Positions 4,226-48,129 of a stretch of DNA of 64,000 bases are shown one piece after another. Positions within the stretch are counted from its first letter, which is position 1. Every line of letters begins with the position of its first letter. The stretch comes from Candidatus Altimarinota bacterium. GTDB taxonomy: Bacteria > Patescibacteriota > Gracilibacteria > UBA4473. The notes under the pieces are model-generated. The model was not told the origin of the DNA, did no database searches, and saw only the letters and a list, made by a program, of their open reading frames with translations. The stretch spans positions 16,833 to 80,832 of the forward strand of contig JAIPGI010000005.1 of assembly GCA_021736215.1 (NCBI GenBank), read 5' to 3'. A program made the translations under genes and the position numbers.

Positions 4226-4771
4226 ATGAAATTAAAAAATCCTACAGGCACCAAACGCATAGTCATCGACAACAACGATGTAACAACGCGCCATGGCGCG
4301 CCCCTACAAATAACACTAGAAGATTTTGATAGAGGAAGTCGAGAATTTAATCTAGAAGTTATTCTCAAAGGAGAAAATGCTCACTGCGAAATTCAGGGAC
4401 GAGCAACCGCGCAGGGTGAAGACAAGAAAATTTGGAATGTGAAGCAAGTATTTGAAGGCAAAAATCAAATCGGAAAAATCGAACTACGAGGAACCGCAAG
4501 TGAGAAAAGTTTTTTGCAATTTGATGGAACCGCCGAATTGACCCATAAATCAGTCGATGCCGATGCTCAAGTACGAGAAAAAATCATTCTTTTTGACGAA
4601 GCACGAGGGAAACTTCTTCCCATTCTCACCGTCAAGACAGACAAGGTTCTCGGGGCATCACATAGTGCTTCTATTGCCCCTGTAAGCGAAGATCAACTCC
4701 TCTACCTTCAATCACGAGGGATTTCGCAAAAAGAAGCAGAGAACGTCCTCAGGGAAGGATTTTTGAAATGA
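4226..4771 (+). CDS. sufD: SufD-like short scaffold subunit
   Basis: Third Suf subunit. The 181 residues cover only the C-terminal beta-helix half and helical end of SufD, which is usually about 400 residues. The segment VLGASHSASIAPVS followed by LLYLQSRGIS matches the SufB/SufD C-terminal core, including the conserved His. The frame runs upstream through two repeats to 4049. The start is placed at the ATG at 4226, behind AGGAGGG. The short form could be native to the lineage, or the N terminus may have been lost when repeats entered the spacer. Confidence 0.8.
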   Translation: MKLKNPTGTKRIVIDNNDVTTRHGAPLQITLEDFDRGSREFNLEVILKGENAHCEIQGRATAQGEDKKIWNVKQVFEGKNQIGKIELRGTASEKSFLQFDGTAELTHKSVDADAQVREKIILFDEARGKLLPILTVKTDKVLGASHSASIAPVSEDQLLYLQSRGISQKEAENVLREGFLK

Positions 4772-4772
4772 A

Positions 4773-5522
4773 TTATTCTAGGCGGACCAGATTTCCCACA
4801 TAATCTTTTATCCTCGTAATAAATTTCTGAAGAGGTTGATATTGTTTTTCCACTTCTGGATCATATTCAAGAATCGTAACTTTTTGTTTTAAACTTTCCG
4901 GAGTTTCTCCTTTCATATCTGACAATTCTCCTTTGTACTTGAATTTTTGAGAACTTCTCGGAGGGAATACCAATCGTTTCGATCCAATAACAACGACAAT
5001 TGGTGTATCAGAATCGTTACAGATATAAATTTCCCGTCCGAAATTCACAGAAACTGGACCCTGTACGACAACAACAGGACCGAGGCCATCAGCATCTCTG
5101 TTATCTATTAGTTCTTTTGAAATTTCATGGATCGGCAATGGTTTTTTCAATTCCATTGCAATATTCATCGTGATTATTCTTTCAACGGAAGAAACTTTTT
5201 CTGGGAACATGAGCGCACTAATCAATTTTTCATCTTTTGAAAAATCAAGGTTATTTATTTCCTCTCCCGGTAAAAGTTTAACTACCGTATTCCCAATCAG
5301 AACCGAGATAGTTAGTTGTTTATAATCATTTTTGATAGAAATATCTTTCACTCCTTGGTATACGAATTCAACCTCTCCTTTTTTCATAGAAAAAGAAAAA
5401 GGAGTTTTTTCATTTAAAACAGTAAAAATTTTGGATGCCTGTTGGAATTCCTCCGTTTCTTTTTGAAGAAGTTCTCCTTTCTCATCAGAAACATCAATTA
5501 CGGTTGTTTGTTCTTGGTCCAT
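4773..5522 (-). CDS. Hypothetical protein, 249 residues
   Basis: I do not recognise a family. It is soluble in appearance, with no signal peptide or membrane segment, acidic in its first 30 residues and rich in alternating beta-type stretches (for example VVVVQGPVSV and IVVVIGSKRLVF) through the second half. It ends one base after the sufD stop, so the two genes converge with no terminator between. ATG at 5522 follows an A/T-rich leader without a ribosome site. Confidence 0.6.
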   Translation of the reverse strand: MDQEQTTVIDVSDEKGELLQKETEEFQQASKIFTVLNEKTPFSFSMKKGEVEFVYQGVKDISIKNDYKQLTISVLIGNTVVKLLPGEEINNLDFSKDEKLISALMFPEKVSSVERIITMNIAMELKKPLPIHEISKELIDNRDADGLGPVVVVQGPVSVNFGREIYICNDSDTPIVVVIGSKRLVFPPRSSQKFKYKGELSDMKGETPESLKQKVTILEYDPEVEKQYQPLQKFITRIKDYVGNLVRLE

Positions 5523-5577
5523 AGTATTTAAAAAAATAATTCTTTTGCAAAATAATATTTATTTGAAAATTGTCAAT

Positions 5578-5603
5578 AAAAAAGCGCCCTCTCGGACGCT
5601 TTT
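5578..5603 (-). terminator. Rho-independent-type terminator after pnp
   Basis: AAAAGCG...CGCTTTT hairpin about 35 bases past the pnp stop. On the minus strand the stem runs straight into a T-rich tract. Confidence 0.7.
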
Positions 5604-5638
5604 CATTATTCATTCTTCATTATTCACTACTCATTGTT

Positions 5639-7747
5639 TCACGCGTCTTTCATCGACAATTGCGTTCGTCCCATTTTATCATTTCCCATAATCTTGACTT
5701 TGACTTTATCACCTTCTTTGACGAGATCGGATGGATGCTCTACTCGATGATTCGCCATAGCCGATACATGCACTAAGGCTTCCTTTCCTGGTAAATATTC
5801 TACAAACACTCCAAAGTCTTGAATCGATTTTACTGTTGCCTCAAAAACATCTCCAACTTTCGGTTCATAGACCAATGCATCAACAGCCGCACGAGCAGCT
5901 TTCGCATTTTCTTGGTTAGTAGAGGTAATCATGATTAAACCATCATCTTCAATATCAATTTTCACACCATACTCAGCACAGAGCCCTTGAATAGTTTCCC
6001 CTCCTTTGCCGATAACGATACGGATAAACTCTGGATTGATGTGGAATGAGTCGATGCGAGGTGCATACTGATTCATTTCTGCGCGTGGCGCAGCAATGCA
6101 TTCTTTCATAACTTTGAGAATCCCTGCTCGTGCTTTACGAGCTTTTTCAAGAGCTTCTTTGAGGAGCGACAACTTAAGTCCCTTGACTTTAATATCGAGC
6201 TGCAACGCGGTAATTCCTTCTTCATCTCCCGTTACCTTGAAATCCATATCTCCATCAAAATCTTCAAAGGACATAATATCGGTGAGAATTTGATAATCCC
6301 CTTTTCCTGGATTCATCATAAGCCCCATTGCTACTCCTGAAATAGCTTTTTTGATAGGCACTCCCGCATCCATGAGGGTGAGGGTTGATCCACAAACTGA
6401 TGCCATAGAAGAAGATCCATTACAGGTCATAATTTCTGAAACTACTCGAACGCAGTATGGGAAATTATCTTTCAATCGATCTGGCATCACGTATCTCAAC
6501 GCTCTCTCTGCCAAAGCTCCGTGCCCAATCTCACGTCGTCCAACCCCTCGAGATCCTCGAACTTCTCCTACTGAATAAGGAGGGAAGTTATAGTGGTGCA
6601 TATAATATTTCTTGGCTTCATCACGATCCGGATCGTCAAGAATCAAATTATCACCAGGCCCCCCCATAGTCGTCATAGAAAGCGCTTGTGTTTCTCCTCG
6701 TTGAAAGAGTGCTGATCCGTGAACTCGTGGGAAGAGTCCCACTTCACACTTCACCGGTCGGACTTCATCAATCGCTCGTCCATCGATTCGTTTTCCCGTT
6801 TTAAAAACTCGTTTACGCATTGTTGCAGCAAATCTTTTTTCAAAAAAGTAGAGGAGATCTCCCTTAGTCACTTCTTTATTTTCAATTTTGTCAGCACAAG
6901 CGGTAATAAGTTTCTCTTCTACGATATGCATTGCTGATTTTATTTCGTGTTTTTCAACTCCCTGAATAGATTCAAAATCGCTATCCGATAAAAGTTCATC
7001 AACGAGTTTGTGCGCAATTTCACTTGGTTCTTGGAGGATTGGTGTTTTTTTCTCAATACCTCCAACTTTCTTCACTAATTCCATTTGTGTTTTACAGATT
7101 TTCTTGATTTCATTGTGTCCAAATTCCAAAGCTTCAAGCATTTTTTCATCAGAAATGAGCTTGGCTCCCGCTTCCACCATAAGAATAGCGTCTTCTGTTC
7201 CTACGAGGATAAGATCCAGCATCCCATTTTCGGATTCATCAAATGTTGGATCAAGGAAAAATGAACCATCCTCTTTCATTCCAATCCTTACCGCTCCTAC
7301 AGGAGCTTCCATAGGCAAACCAGCCAATTGCACCGCCATGGAGCAAGCATTGATTGCTGTGGCTGAAGTGGTATTTTTTCCGTTTGCTTGAAAAAGTGTT
7401 GCTGAAATCTGAACATCATTGCGCATCATTTTGGGAAACAGTGGACGCAAAGGACGATCAATCATGCGACTCGTCAAAATGGCACTCTCTGGGGGTCTCG
7501 CTTCTCGTTTACTAAAACGAGAACCTTTGAATTTTCCCGTTGCATAGAATTTAGGATCATAATCAACCGTCATTGGAAAGAAGTCCGTTCCTTCTTTTAC
7601 TTCTTCGCTCATTCCTGCCGCCGCAAAAACAATTGTGTCGCCATAGGTAACCATAGCGGCTCCTTGGGCTTGATACGCAAAACGTCCAGTCTCAAAAATG
7701 AGATCGACTCCCCCGACCTTTACCGATACCGATTGTACATTTTTCAT
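5639..7747 (-). CDS. pnp: Polynucleotide phosphorylase
   Basis: 3'-5' phosphorolytic exoribonuclease of mRNA decay; acts as a homotrimer. At 702 residues it has the full family layout: two RNase PH-like domains separated by a helical linker, a KH domain (VIGKGGETIQGL) and a C-terminal S1 domain (VFEATVKSIQDFGVFVEY). The frame extends upstream to 7801, but homology begins at the ATG at 7747 (MKNVQSVSV). It follows rpsO on the same strand, the classical rpsO-pnp pairing. Confidence 0.97.
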   Translation of the reverse strand: MKNVQSVSVKVGGVDLIFETGRFAYQAQGAAMVTYGDTIVFAAAGMSEEVKEGTDFFPMTVDYDPKFYATGKFKGSRFSKREARPPESAILTSRMIDRPLRPLFPKMMRNDVQISATLFQANGKNTTSATAINACSMAVQLAGLPMEAPVGAVRIGMKEDGSFFLDPTFDESENGMLDLILVGTEDAILMVEAGAKLISDEKMLEALEFGHNEIKKICKTQMELVKKVGGIEKKTPILQEPSEIAHKLVDELLSDSDFESIQGVEKHEIKSAMHIVEEKLITACADKIENKEVTKGDLLYFFEKRFAATMRKRVFKTGKRIDGRAIDEVRPVKCEVGLFPRVHGSALFQRGETQALSMTTMGGPGDNLILDDPDRDEAKKYYMHHYNFPPYSVGEVRGSRGVGRREIGHGALAERALRYVMPDRLKDNFPYCVRVVSEIMTCNGSSSMASVCGSTLTLMDAGVPIKKAISGVAMGLMMNPGKGDYQILTDIMSFEDFDGDMDFKVTGDEEGITALQLDIKVKGLKLSLLKEALEKARKARAGILKVMKECIAAPRAEMNQYAPRIDSFHINPEFIRIVIGKGGETIQGLCAEYGVKIDIEDDGLIMITSTNQENAKAARAAVDALVYEPKVGDVFEATVKSIQDFGVFVEYLPGKEALVHVSAMANHRVEHPSDLVKEGDKVKVKIMGNDKMGRTQLSMKDA

Positions 7748-44810: not shown

Positions 44811-45212
44811 GGGGGTGTCTGGTTTCGACAGAGAGAACTGAAATGTATTTTCTGCGAGTTCAGCGCGTACGGCCGCCGGTATATCCGCTGTACAACGATA
44901 AGTGCAAACTTCATCAAAAATACAGTTGCTCAAGCAAAAGCCCTTTTGGCTCCCGCTTACGCAATTGCTTAATATAATAAATCTTACTTGAGCCTATCGC
45001 TCGTGAGTGAAAAACACTTAATGATCCTAGAATGTTTTTCAAATTTTGGATCTCATCCCACACCTTTTGCCAAGGTGAGGGAGACATCTTCGGCAACCTC
45101 TTTTCACTTTTTGTTCATTTTCAAATGAAGAGAGTAAACAAATGAACTAGACTTCGTAGACGGAACTATGTTTCCTCCCTGGACGAGGGTTCAACTCCCT
45201 CCACCTCCACCA
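44811..45212 (+). ncRNA. ssrA: tmRNA (transfer-messenger RNA)
   Basis: Rescues stalled ribosomes and tags the peptide. 402 bases with encoded CCA. The 5' GGGGGTG pairs with CACCTCC before ACCA; TCTGGTTTCGACAG is the conserved 5' block; GAGGGTTCAACTCCCTC is the T arm. The reading frame opens at GCA 44904 and stops with TAA at 44970-44972. The tag has 22 residues, ANFIKNTVAQ ... ALLAPAYAIA. This is longer than most and ends in AIA rather than LAA. Confidence 0.96.
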
Positions 45213-45407
45213 CTAAAAATATCGATATCCCTTGTGGATAGCGAGGTTTTTAGATGTTAGAATGAGGAGAATCCGTATATGTACAGGGTTCGATAGGACG
45301 AAGTGAGGAAATGAAAGCCTGCCTGCCATAGGCGGGCTTGCTTATAATTTCCGAACGAGGAACTCACGACCTCGCAAAGCGAGGGAGTACTCCCTCCACC
45401 TCCACCA
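45194..45407. repeat. Direct repeat of the tmRNA 3' end
   Basis: ACTCCCTCCACCTCCACCA is present at 45194-45212 (end of tmRNA) and again at 45389-45407. A 19-base duplication of a tRNA-like 3' end is a classic trace of site-specific integration. Confidence 0.7.
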
Positions 45408-45633: not shown

Positions 45634-46446
45634 TTATAATGGACTTTTAATATTTTTGAGTTTCGGATTTGTAACATGAGTGTATTGTTGTGTTGTCCGA
45701 ATATTCTGATGTCCGAGCAGTTCCTGAACATAACGAATATCAACTCCATTTTCGAGTAAGTGTGTAGCAAAAGAGTGTCTGAGCGAGTGAAAAGTCGCTT
45801 TTTTTTGGATACCAGAAAGATGCAGAGCTTTTTCAAAAATTTTTTGTGCTGTTCTGGTTGTTAGTTTTCCACCTCGTTCACTCTCAAAAAGAAGATCATT
45901 CCCTGATTTTCCCACAATTAAATTTTTCAGATTATCGACCAATTTTTCTGGCAATACACTGATACGATCTTTTTGACCTTTTGCTTGCTTGATATGAAGA
46001 GTCATTTCTTCTAAATCCATATCCTGAACCTTGAGAGCAATAACTTCACTCACTCTCAAACCTGCTCCATAAGCAAGCGATAAAAGAAGTTTGTGTTTTG
46101 TGTTTGGAGGGATTTGTAAAATTTTTTCAATTTCACTTCGAGAAAGAACCACTGGTAAACTTTTGGGCTTTTTTGCCGATTGTATTTCTATTTTTTGTGA
46201 ATTTTTTATCACATTTTGGTAGTAAAATTTAATCGCATTCAAAAATAAATTTCTGCTCTGAGGTGAAATTTTCCTTCTTTCACAATTGAGCAAAAAATCT
46301 CTCATGTTTTCTTGATCAAGTTTTGTATAATCACAACTCTTAAAAGAGAAATATTCTCGTAATCCATAAAGATAACTTTTTATTGTTTTGGAACTATAAT
46401 TCCTGATCTTTAGTTCTCGTTCGGTTTTCTGGAGTTCAGTTTGCAT
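45634..46446 (-). CDS. Tyrosine recombinase (short IntI/XerA-like integrase)
   Basis: 270-residue site-specific recombinase. N-terminal SAM-like core-binding domain (about 1-95), then the catalytic domain with R131 (GAGLRVSE), K156, H220 and R223 (HSLRHSFATHLL), H246 (LLGHQNI) and the nucleophile Y255 (QYTHV). It ends NIKSPL, as integron integrases and XerA-like proteins do, and LPVVLSRSEIEKIL also fits those groups. The extra helix insert typical of IntI (between the active-site Lys and HxxR) is not visible. Divergent from the cassette gene with a candidate attI between, the standard integron layout. Confidence 0.85.
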   Translation of the reverse strand: MQTELQKTERELKIRNYSSKTIKSYLYGLREYFSFKSCDYTKLDQENMRDFLLNCERRKISPQSRNLFLNAIKFYYQNVIKNSQKIEIQSAKKPKSLPVVLSRSEIEKILQIPPNTKHKLLLSLAYGAGLRVSEVIALKVQDMDLEEMTLHIKQAKGQKDRISVLPEKLVDNLKNLIVGKSGNDLLFESERGGKLTTRTAQKIFEKALHLSGIQKKATFHSLRHSFATHLLENGVDIRYVQELLGHQNIRTTQQYTHVTNPKLKNIKSPL

Positions 46447-46470
46447 AATTTATTGAAAAATAGATACAAT
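46441..46470 (+). promoter_or_regulatory. Candidate cassette promoter (Pc-like)
   Basis: TTGCAT (46441-46446), 18 bases, TACAAT (46465-46470). The -35 overlaps the recombinase start codon and the promoter points into the cassette, the usual position of Pc in integrons. Confidence 0.45.
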
Positions 46471-46503
46471 GAGGGTAGTTTTTATACGACTAAATTCCTC
46501 ATT

Positions 46504-46568
46504 ATTTCGCATAATACACAAATTATCGCTTAAATCATGAAAACATTTCGCATAAAAACGAGTTAGGC
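46504..46568 (+). other. attI: Candidate attI site
   Basis: Between the recombinase and the cassette. Two direct copies of ATTTCGCATAA (46504-46514 and 46545-46555) precede the R box GTTAGGC (46562-46568, consensus GTTRRRY), similar in plan to attI sites with integrase-binding direct repeats. Predicted crossover is between G46562 and T46563. Confidence 0.55.
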
Positions 46569-46630
46569 GAAAGAATAAAAATTCATTTAAAATCCTACGG
46601 ATTTTGTTTGGCAAAAAATTTTAAAATTTA
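46562..46630. repeat. Left arm of 69-base cassette-flanking inverted repeat
   Basis: Begins GTTAGGCGAAAGAATAAAA and ends TTTGGCAAAAAATTTTAAAA-TTTA. Pairs with 47943-48011. Contains its own hairpin AAAATCC-TAC-GGATTTT (46589-46605). Ends 10 bases before the cassette ATG. Confidence 0.8.
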
Positions 46631-46640
46631 TAACTTCAAT

Positions 46641-47945
46641 ATGAACAAATTTGAACAACAATCTCAGCCAGATCAAGAAACAGGAATATCAAGAAGGGAA
46701 TTTCTTAAAAAAGCAGGAATGGGTATTTTGGCATTAAAAGCATTTGAACTTGGATTACTAAGTGGCAACAGTGAAGCGAAAGAAAAAAATACTGAAGCAC
46801 TCAATGATTTAGATAAATTAATCAATGGCTACATAGAACAAGACACTTATTTATCAGAACAGGAAATTAGGGAATCTTTAGAAAAATGCGGTTTTATTGA
46901 AAATTTTAATATTCAAGAATTGCAGATAAAAAATCCATGGAAACCATTTACCAAAAGAGATGTTTTAAAAGAAGCTTTAAATGAAGCAATATCTACTGAC
47001 AATTTATCATTAAACGAAGACAATTTAAATATAGTACAAACTGATTTTAACAAAATCGGAGCTCTTTTTTGTGGAGCATTTTATTATGATGAATATAAAA
47101 GTATTTTTATAAATCAGGAAAATCCAAAATGGAAAAAAGATAGAATTGAAAGCTTGATTTATAGTGAAGTTATTTCCAGTGAGTATAAAAGAATTGAAAG
47201 CAGTTTTCATAATTCAGATATATCATACATTGAAAAAGACCAAAAAAGAGCTTCATTAGATGAATGGTTTGATAAAAGCATGAAAAATCCAAAAAAATAT
47301 ACAGAAATTCCTGACTTAGTTTTAAGACATAGGGAATCAATAATAAAATCAATTAGAGCATTCCGCACACGAGAGGCAATCAAGCAAATAATTACACAAA
47401 CCGGCTTGCCACACGAGGCTTTTCATTATTTTTATGAAACAGGATTTGTGAGAGAAGGTTATGAAGGACCAAGTGTAAATGAGTTATTAGCTATGGCTAT
47501 TCGCGGAAAACACCAACGATTTGGAGATAAAGATCCCGGGTACGCAAGTATTGGATATTTTTTAAAAGATATTGATATTAATGATAAGGAGAAATTAAAT
47601 AAATTTTGTAAAAATATTATTGATAAATATGATATCACATCAAATCCAAAAAAATACAGCCAAGAAGAATGGAAATATCTAAGTGATAAAGAAAAAGATG
47701 ATTGTTTGATACAAGAATCATTTTTTCAATTTTTAAACGAATATTTAGCCAGAATTTATAATGGAGCTGTTGGGAATGATCCTGTTAACGTGAAAATGAA
47801 ATTAGAAGAAGCTGTCATTCAGCAAAATGGCATATTGCCACAATATGATTTAGAAGATTTGTACCATGATCCAACAGACGAAGAGTTGGCGTTTCTTAAG
47901 CAAATGAAATGGAAAGGCACCCCTATTTTGAAAATCAAGGAATAA
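46641..47945 (+). CDS. Cassette-borne Tat-signal protein with HEAFH metallopeptidase-like motif
   Basis: 434 residues, no family recognised. N terminus has a twin-arginine signal, SRREFLKKAGMGILALKAF (17-35), pointing to folded export. Residues 258-262 read HEAFH, an HExxH zinc motif, and 19 residues on comes NELLA with E281, a possible third ligand as in gluzincins. The rest is charged and helical. I infer an exported zinc peptidase, unproven. Start at the ATG at 46641 (MNKFEQQ); the upstream frame from 46608 runs into the inverted repeat. No ribosome site seen. Confidence 0.65.
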   Translation: MNKFEQQSQPDQETGISRREFLKKAGMGILALKAFELGLLSGNSEAKEKNTEALNDLDKLINGYIEQDTYLSEQEIRESLEKCGFIENFNIQELQIKNPWKPFTKRDVLKEALNEAISTDNLSLNEDNLNIVQTDFNKIGALFCGAFYYDEYKSIFINQENPKWKKDRIESLIYSEVISSEYKRIESSFHNSDISYIEKDQKRASLDEWFDKSMKNPKKYTEIPDLVLRHRESIIKSIRAFRTREAIKQIITQTGLPHEAFHYFYETGFVREGYEGPSVNELLAMAIRGKHQRFGDKDPGYASIGYFLKDIDINDKEKLNKFCKNIIDKYDITSNPKKYSQEEWKYLSDKEKDDCLIQESFFQFLNEYLARIYNGAVGNDPVNVKMKLEEAVIQQNGILPQYDLEDLYHDPTDEELAFLKQMKWKGTPILKIKE

Positions 47946-48011
47946 ATTTTAAAATTTTTTGCCAAAATTCTGCTGTTGCAGAATTAATGAATTTTTATTA
48001 CATCGCCTAAC
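47943..48011. repeat. Right arm of 69-base cassette-flanking inverted repeat
   Basis: Begins at the cassette gene's TAA stop (TAAATTTTAAAATTTTTTGC) and ends at R'' GCCTAAC. Carries a hairpin ATTCTGC-TGTT-GCAGAAT (47967-47984) opposite the unrelated hairpin in the left arm. Confidence 0.8.
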
Positions 48012-48091
48012 AGCGTGTATGAGGCTACGGCTTTTTACAAAATCCTTCGCCCAAATTGCTTCGCAACTTCTCATACACGCAAACGTTATAT
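48005..48091 (+). other. attC: attC recombination site
   Basis: R'' GCCTAAC (48005-48011), then GCGTGTATGAG (48013-48023), a 46-base loop, CTCATACACGC (48070-48080), AAAC, and R' GTTATAT (48085-48091). The 11-bp inner stem is perfect. Extra unpaired bases (A on one side, AAAC on the other) lie between R and L boxes, like the extrahelical bases that set attC strand choice. R' differs from R'' after the G because the following bases belong to the insertion site. Confidence 0.75.
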
Positions 48092-48095
48092 TACT

Positions 48096-48129
48096 AAAAA
48101 AGACCCACTCTCGAGTGGGTCTTTTTTTT
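48096..48129. terminator. Bidirectional terminator
   Basis: AAAAAGACCCACTC-TCGA-GAGTGGG-type stem (48099-48122) with A tract before and T tract after; serves the cassette and the gene ending at 48148. Confidence 0.85.

Follow-up and report, generated by a model that had tools for sequence, protein, structure and literature searches.

A probable integron-type platform with a short integrase in a Candidatus Altimarinota genome, and its relatives in the Candidate Phyla Radiation

Layout of the locus

The window analysed here, a 64-kb stretch of contig JAIPGI010000005.1 from a Candidatus Altimarinota bacterium (assembly GCA_021736215.1, 93% complete, with 17 contigs that total 1.01 Mb), carries a tyrosine recombinase gene and a divergent open reading frame (ORF), with a GTTAGGC motif starting at position 46562 between the two. 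Beyond the ORF lies a GCCTAAC motif (48005-48011), followed by 11 perfect pairs (GCGTGTATGAG/CTCATACACGC), then AAAC and a GTTATAT from 48085 (Table 1). When G48085 is joined to T46563 the product is GTTAGGCG, the complement of CGCCTAAC (48004-48011). A preliminary description of this DNA had noted the recombinase, the motifs and the stem, and direct reading bore it out base for base.

Integrons built on IntI have a divergent integrase gene beside attI, a crossover between G and TT, RYYYAAC and GTTRRRY boxes, cassettes that mostly hold a single gene and face one direction, and imperfectly palindromic attC sites. The attC features of canonical integrons are described in passages of PMC8946536. 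At our locus a tyrosine recombinase gene adjoins an attI with a conserved GTT, at which the crossover is predicted, and the attC has R'' and R' boxes and a paired stem and is found by a covariance model of our own. We regard the window module, with high confidence, as an integron-type platform consisting of a recombinase, a conserved attI and one cassette with its attC, predicted to cut at G/TT without the IntI-specific domain, and it is one of very many. The minimal integron of the preliminary description, made of these same parts, is thus supported, the identities of the parts being as it had claimed. The window genome holds a single copy each of the recombinase and of the attI region.

Table 1. 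Features of the locus, in coordinates of the 64-kb window
Feature	Position	Strand	Basis
Short integron-type integrase, 270 aa tyrosine recombinase	45634..46446	-	NCBIfam, Pfam and PDB matches, tree
First TTTCGCATAA copy in attI, possible accessory integrase site (putative function)	46505..46514	+	direct reading
Second TTTCGCATAA copy, 41 bp on, beside the core site	46546..46555	+	direct reading
attI core GTTAGGCG, predicted crossover G46562/T46563	46562..46569	+	direct reading; attI-like motif in relatives
Gene cassette, 1523 bp, T46563 to G48085	46563..48085	+	left end complements own R''
Terminal inverted repeat, left arm, 26 nt	46562..46587	+	88% complementary to 47986-48011
Terminal inverted repeat, right arm, ends in R'' CGCCTAAC	47986..48011	+	partner of 46562-46587
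Inner complementary arm, left, 39 nt	46607..46645	+	85% complementary to 47928-47966
Inner complementary arm, right	47928..47966	+	partner of 46607-46645
Cassette ORF, 434 aa, no assigned family	ATG 46641, stop ends 47945	+	ORF reading, family scans
attC: R'' 48004-48011, stem 48013-48023/48070-48080, branched tip, GTT at 48085	48004..48092	+	models R1, R2
Intrinsic-terminator-like hairpin just beyond the array	48096..48127	+	hairpin-forming sequence

Recombinase, attI and attC in related genomes

The window recombinase has Pfam Phage_integrase and SAM-like domains. Its best NCBIfam model is NF040815 (XerA_Arch, 'site-specific tyrosine recombinase/integron integrase'), with 225.1 bits against a cut-off of 220, while it stays below the cut-offs of the IntI model TIGR02249 (218.3 bits; cut-off 265) and of the XerC and XerD models TIGR02224 and TIGR02225 (193.2 and 187.3 bits; cut-offs 335.15 and 329.6). 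The best match in the PDB by E-value, by sequence and by fold alike, was VchIntIA (2a3v); by TM-score the Tn1549 integrase, among others, lies as near as 2a3v or nearer to the predicted model, which has a mean pLDDT of 86. The IntI-specific insert of about 44 residues, whose absence had been suspected, is indeed missing: 16 residues stand where VchIntIA has 58, and the KG-K-R and H-LRH motifs are 64 rather than 108 residues apart. This distance has a median of 64 (range 52-66) in proteins of the Candidate Phyla Radiation (CPR; 39 of 42 measured), and is 65 in other short integrases (27/33), 106-108 in IntI (8/9) and 67-69 in Xer proteins (2/4).

A quick tree was built from 141 proteins, some being the same gene twice, after hits of less than 226 residues or with stops had been excluded; its rows are 77 of these, picked by hand, and 11 others. 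The 42 CPR proteins form one clade (node value 97) and IntI another (node value 100), whose nine rows include two viral proteins assigned there by length. The window recombinase falls outside the IntI clade, and this tree separates neither the sister order of the CPR proteins, IntI and the other short integrases nor the two readings offered in the preliminary description, a primitive IntI and an XerA-like enzyme that came to act on attC-type sites. Family codes are scattered inside the CPR clade, a pattern that horizontal transfer would give. Homologues are abundant, 7824 of 7997 scored candidates matching at E 1e-20, and many of the 120 listed lie on contigs of 1-2 kb. Named relatives come from Peregrinibacteria, Gracilibacteria, Magasanikbacteria, Moranbacteria and Paceibacterota; in genomes G058, G121, G148, G205, G260 and others the integrase gene has a TGA within it, and TGA is therefore probably read as an amino acid there (attC sites are present in these genomes too). 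The TGA-containing and the named relatives place the window genome in the CPR, as had been supposed from the letters of the window. Locus L025 holds two adjacent tyrosine recombinases, one of integron type and one Xer-like and 30% identical to that of the window (4431-5255 and 5318-6127), and the viral contigs L195, L196 and L197 carry relatives of IntI length (311-314 aa), the first two of which group with IntI1 in the tree.

Among 60 close genomes, 19, the window genome included, had a recombinase match at E 1e-30. In 6 of the 18 other loci no more than 300 bases separate the recombinase start from the contig end on the attI side, as expected if the attI side varies. The pattern AGTTR-NNN-G-NN-AT, for which three close variants were also accepted, marks an attI-like motif upstream of the recombinase in 13 of the 19 loci, a count that is partly fitted because the pattern alternatives admit the window, L025 and L032, and the sequence beyond the motif differs between loci. 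By eye, an element like TTTCGCATAA was seen in 12 of the 13 attI regions inspected, L032 being the exception. The reverse complement of the attI 8-mer starts a downstream hairpin in seven loci (the window, L023, L026, L027, L031, L033 and L032), counting L033, whose stem looks bulged by eye, and L032, which matches in 7 of 8 bases; L024 has the 8-mer, with no hairpin there. At L097 the 11.5 kb fetched include an attI-like site with a cassette start (2196-2213) and lack an integrase; that genome has its close integrase on another contig.

Two covariance models were built here for attC, and their E-values, which do not come from a published attC model, are rough: R1 from seven aligned sites including that of the window, and R2 from the sites of six relatives, without it. 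R2 matches the window at 48004-48092 with 62.5 bits (E 4.5e-12), the next match in the 64 kb having an E-value of 0.85, so that the site foreseen in the preliminary description is recovered by a model trained without it; R1, which had the window in training, gives it 84.4 bits. In 19 sources R1 gave 12 matches at E <0.01, of which seven are the sites it was trained on. Between 47950 and 48125, a stretch that includes the neighbouring terminator hairpin, the minus strand folds better than 200 of 200 shuffles (z -8.4). Two-sided changes occur in 7 of the 11 stem pairs of the seven-site alignment, whose covariation score was reached by none of 500 shuffles. An alignment of 105 sites from 26 sources, fitted to the covariance model, has a covariation score of 0.603 against 0.119 when shuffled; 95.9% of its cells pair (69.7% shuffled, 26-37% slid) and 354 of them, against 103, have two-sided changes. 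At L026 an attC of almost 200 bases (7080-7277) holds a second CGTTGTCTG, perhaps a decayed fused site.

Under strict filters, R1 detected attC in 98 of the 288 class genomes, the window genome included (E 1e-3), and in 61 of the 379 phylum genomes (E 1e-4). Among the same 288 genomes 269 have a recombinase match at 1e-10, most of them at no more than the level of ordinary Xer proteins; a close match (E <1e-45) is present in 85, the line between the two having been set after the match list was viewed, with fragments in G126, G138 and G206 falling below it. Both attC and a close recombinase occur in 61 genomes, attC only in 37, the recombinase only in 24 and neither in 166 (odds ratio 11, Fisher p 6.6e-18). 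Among the listed matches, 28 genomes have attC on the contig that carries the recombinase, 52 sites in all; the nearest site lies 428-7375 bp from the gene, and 51 of the 52 are upstream and divergent.

A different role for the recombinase, as an ordinary Xer-type enzyme, with the attC cassettes moved in trans by IntI from elsewhere and the adjacency due to shared insertion hot spots, seems to us very unlikely. Such an enzyme would suit the score above the XerA_Arch cut-off, the missing insert, the attC-bearing genomes without a close recombinase and the attI-like site of G174, where no integrase lies within the 11.5 kb fetched; the divergent layout and the strong co-occurrence speak against it. 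Moreover, the attI beside the recombinase has the same predicted GTT crossover and holds sequences found inside arrays (at L120 one cassette start is present both at attI and at an attC). The preliminary description would have failed had the recombinase been the genome's resolving Xer, and this gene is not the only one of Xer type: a distant Xer, 32% identical, is encoded on contig 5. No protein of the window genome scores above the TIGR02249 cut-off. The preferred reading remains that of an integron-type platform with its own short integrase.

Cassettes, their ends and the excised circle

Between successive attC sites we delimited 75 cassette units with a median of 891 bp. Their comparison points to cassettes of a single gene with G/TT borders and an R'' that matches the cassette's own 5' end. 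The longest ORF runs along the array in 63 of the 71 units of 200-3100 bp, against it in seven, and is lacking in one. Family scans covered 62 cassette ORFs and that of the window, after exclusion of the seven units whose longest ORF runs against the array and of one ORF of 43 aa; among the matches listed, Pfam families include HNH nucleases, methyltransferases, GNAT, GmrSD, DNA cytosine methylase, RelA/SpoT, Schlafen AlbA_2 and HicA, and several PADLOC models match, so that some cassette genes resemble anti-phage defence genes. The window cassette ORF, an orphan gene with a signal-like N-terminal stretch by eye, gave no NCBIfam match at 0.01, no Pfam match above cut-off (best E 0.031) or at 0.001, and none in PADLOC at 1e-4; besides itself it has nine homologues at E 1e-5, two of them named and both CPR.

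Eight comparisons of borders (six cassettes and one near-copy), chosen from the BLAST list for starting at a cassette's left end where other hits start inside cassettes, gave 73-95% identity over the 60 bases inside the GTT and 53-67% over the 60 outside, the latter being close to background because gapped global alignment gives unrelated DNA about 0.6. Similar cassettes in other genomes thus have their left borders at GTT, where the preliminary description had put the border. One cassette is internal in G037, and its left 2.2 kb are also found at the attI-like site of G174. One array, at L101 (G067), has two 505-bp cassettes with near-identical left ends, likely a duplication.

The complementarity of the window cassette's ends extends beyond the R box, first over 26 bases (88%) and then over 39 (85%), which the preliminary description had missed. 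Of the 75 cassettes, 50 agree with their own R'' at each of the five variable positions, against 5.5% of cross-pairs, and in the window cassette the arms match in 5/5 positions of the R box and 12/13 outer columns. Within the 50 cassettes with a full R box, column 9 from the GTT pairs in 90% (null 71%) and column 12 in 76% (null 60%), columns 13-22 pair in 64-82% (null 25-37%), and pairing is at background past column 24. Columns 10 and 11 pair in only 4% and 2% (null 6% and 2%) because the mismatch itself is conserved there: A against T in 31/50 and A against G in 39/50. Over all 75 cassettes, own arms match beyond the R box at 7.92 of 13 positions, whereas other cassettes of the same array match at 3.97, and the sum of own-arm scores was equalled by none of 10000 permutations. 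Inverted repeats of this kind, about 24 bp long, particular to each cassette and with a conserved mismatch in two columns, are a new feature. Because their sequence varies while the pairing persists, we infer that the pairing is selected and is no leftover of copying, a process that would not yield two conserved mismatches.

The long hairpin can form only in the excised circle, because in the array the partner on the right belongs to the next cassette. DNA folding gave a bottom-strand mean of -44.3 kcal/mol for the circle and -31.5 for the array, the circle being more stable in 48 and the bottom strand more stable than the top in 49 of 49 cassettes, which had been picked for a perfect R-box match, a choice biased towards the circle. 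Insertion and excision of cassettes, with cuts at G/TT, is the predicted role of the short integrase. To judge from the folding predictions, it may act like IntI and recombine attC, as a folded bottom strand, with attI in double-stranded form. The arms (an 8-bp R box, two conserved mismatches and about 12 bp more) would meet solely in the excised circle, and once joined they may stabilise its attC hairpin and so favour both the re-insertion of circles and the correct strand.

Two other explanations of the arms were considered. Transposon ends, with the recombinase as transposase, are suggested by a gene flanked by 26-bp and 39-bp inverted arms, yet the recombinase lies outside them, the arms vary between cassettes and match chiefly their own partner, two of their columns are conserved mismatches, and contigs such as G105:C23 have nine listed attC units beside a single recombinase; we find this hardly credible. 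Less improbable, though still unlikely, is that the arms are transcription terminators or mRNA-stabilising ends, symmetrical by chance and without a role in recombination. A terminator-like hairpin does lie between the two right arms of the window cassette (47966-47985), but the arms themselves are separated by a gene and meet in the circle only, the mismatches at columns 10-11 and an end of matching near column 24 are ill-suited to terminators, and the bottom strand is the one that folds better. Our preference is for arms that act in cassette recombination.

The sequences support the parts of the platform, their layout on one contig in 28 genomes, the left borders at GTT, compensatory stem changes, the complementarity of most cassettes with their own ends and the missing insert. 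Several points weigh against the platform or against the role given to the arms. Recombination, a circle and an empty attI were none of them observed, and the IntI-specific domain absent here is described as necessary for integron recombination in passages of PMC9668308. The window attC is the only one in its genome (R1, E up to 1), 24 of the 85 genomes with a close recombinase have no attC match, 37 of the 98 with attC have no close recombinase, and the relatives are mostly metagenome-assembled genomes (MAGs). In the 105-site alignment, with its fit to the model, the pairs with a two-sided change (9 against 8.7 shuffled) and the pair types (29 against 31.5) are not above shuffles. The R box is matched in at most 3/5 positions in 17 of 75 cassettes, and similarity between cassettes extends to the right end in two only (c52 and c67), stopping earlier in the others. 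To these come the choice of the folded cassettes and the canonical control for the arms, which consists of two class 1 cassettes only, with full or near R-box match and with ends that decide neither way outside the box; Pseudoalteromonas integron loci gave no usable cassette arrays, and the E. coli plasmid AP027469 has no annotated cassette array beside its integrase (no attC scan of it was made).

No empty-site allele of the window locus occurs among the fetched genomes, beyond which no specific search was made. As to a cassette promoter Pc, sigma-70 matches in a scan were no denser than in shuffles. The transfer-messenger RNA (tmRNA) gene beside the window integron looks incidental: a tmRNA-targeted element as an account of the whole locus was dropped because ARAGORN found tmRNA in none of 24 related stretches (3.8-20 kb, several ended by contig borders). 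The last 19 bases of the window tmRNA gene (45194-45212) are exactly repeated at 45389-45407, 195 bp downstream, which is what integration into the 3' end of the tmRNA gene could leave.

Short integrases beyond the CPR and comparison with known systems

Layout was also scored by script at 84 loci (L111-L194 of 160 fetched), 70 of them non-CPR and 14 CPR, with L129 ('bacterium') counted as CPR. In 17 of the 70 non-CPR loci the 400 bases downstream of the integrase hold a GTT 8-mer that has its complement at the start of a hairpin, and in none was there one upstream; shifted controls gave 4/70, perhaps real array positions, and 0. The CPR loci had 2/14 upstream, where there was room in five only, and none downstream. 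Direct reading gave attC-like sites in Flavobacterium, Paenibacillus, Nitrospirae, Spirochaetota, a deltaproteobacterium and a viral contig; those at L180, L128, L159, L191, L125 and L145 (Flavobacterium, Paenibacillus, Spirochaetota, a viral contig and others) lie downstream in the same direction, and the same GAAAT/ACATC arm ends recur in Paenibacillus. Ten viral loci with IntI-length matches gave one doubtful attC.

A wider reading, on which we are evenly divided, is that these loci form a second great branch of integrons, with short integrases lacking the IntI domain, common in the CPR and occurring with a reversed array in Bacteroidota, Bacillota and Spirochaetota, among others. The cassettes of this branch would be self-licensing, their own arms of about 24 bp joining after excision and making the circle the preferred substrate, in the right orientation. 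If this holds, integron recombination predates the IntI-defining domain and needs none. An integrase free of that domain makes the recognition of folded attC and the origin of integrons directly testable. In CPR bacteria, whose genomes are tiny and which are believed to live at the expense of other cells, cassette sites in about one third of the sampled class genomes would account for part of the gene trade.

Open-licence literature gave no report of integrons in CPR bacteria among the matches listed, subscription papers and preprints being outside its scope. The passages of PMC12259885, where IntegronFinder was used to look for complete integrons in a set of 27,578 bacterial MAGs that includes 3004 from the CPR, name no CPR integron, and those of PMC9024848 (IntegronFinder 2.0) place 93% of complete integrons in Gammaproteobacteria. 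Searches that require the IntI domain, such as that in passages of PMC9668308, would overlook integrases of the window type and return at most orphan attC clusters.

The window-type loci resemble IntI integrons (classes 1-3, Vibrio and other chromosomal ones) in their divergent layout, G/TT crossover, boxes, cassettes and attC. They differ in an integrase about 44 residues shorter that forms a separate clade, and in attC spacers of 1 nt on one side against 4 nt on the other (3 in L032), which enclose a continuous stem of about 11-14 bp. Their cassette ends are complementary over about 24 bp, the canonical comparison being two cassettes only. XerA is the dif-resolving enzyme of archaea; the window recombinase is like it (4a8e, 5hxy) in length, domain content and motif spacing, and unlike it in having close relatives in 85 of 288 genomes that adjoin attI and attC. 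With the archaeal integrons described in passages of PMC9668308 the window type shares non-proteobacterial hosts and attC arrays, many without an integrase, whereas the archaeal IntIs were sought by, and are described with, the IntI-specific domain that window-type integrases do not have. Short-integrase loci outside the CPR are like inverted integrons in their reversed layout, while the CPR group is unlike them and has the canonical divergent one. Such inverted integrons, of which Treponema denticola provides an example, are integrons outside the Proteobacteria.

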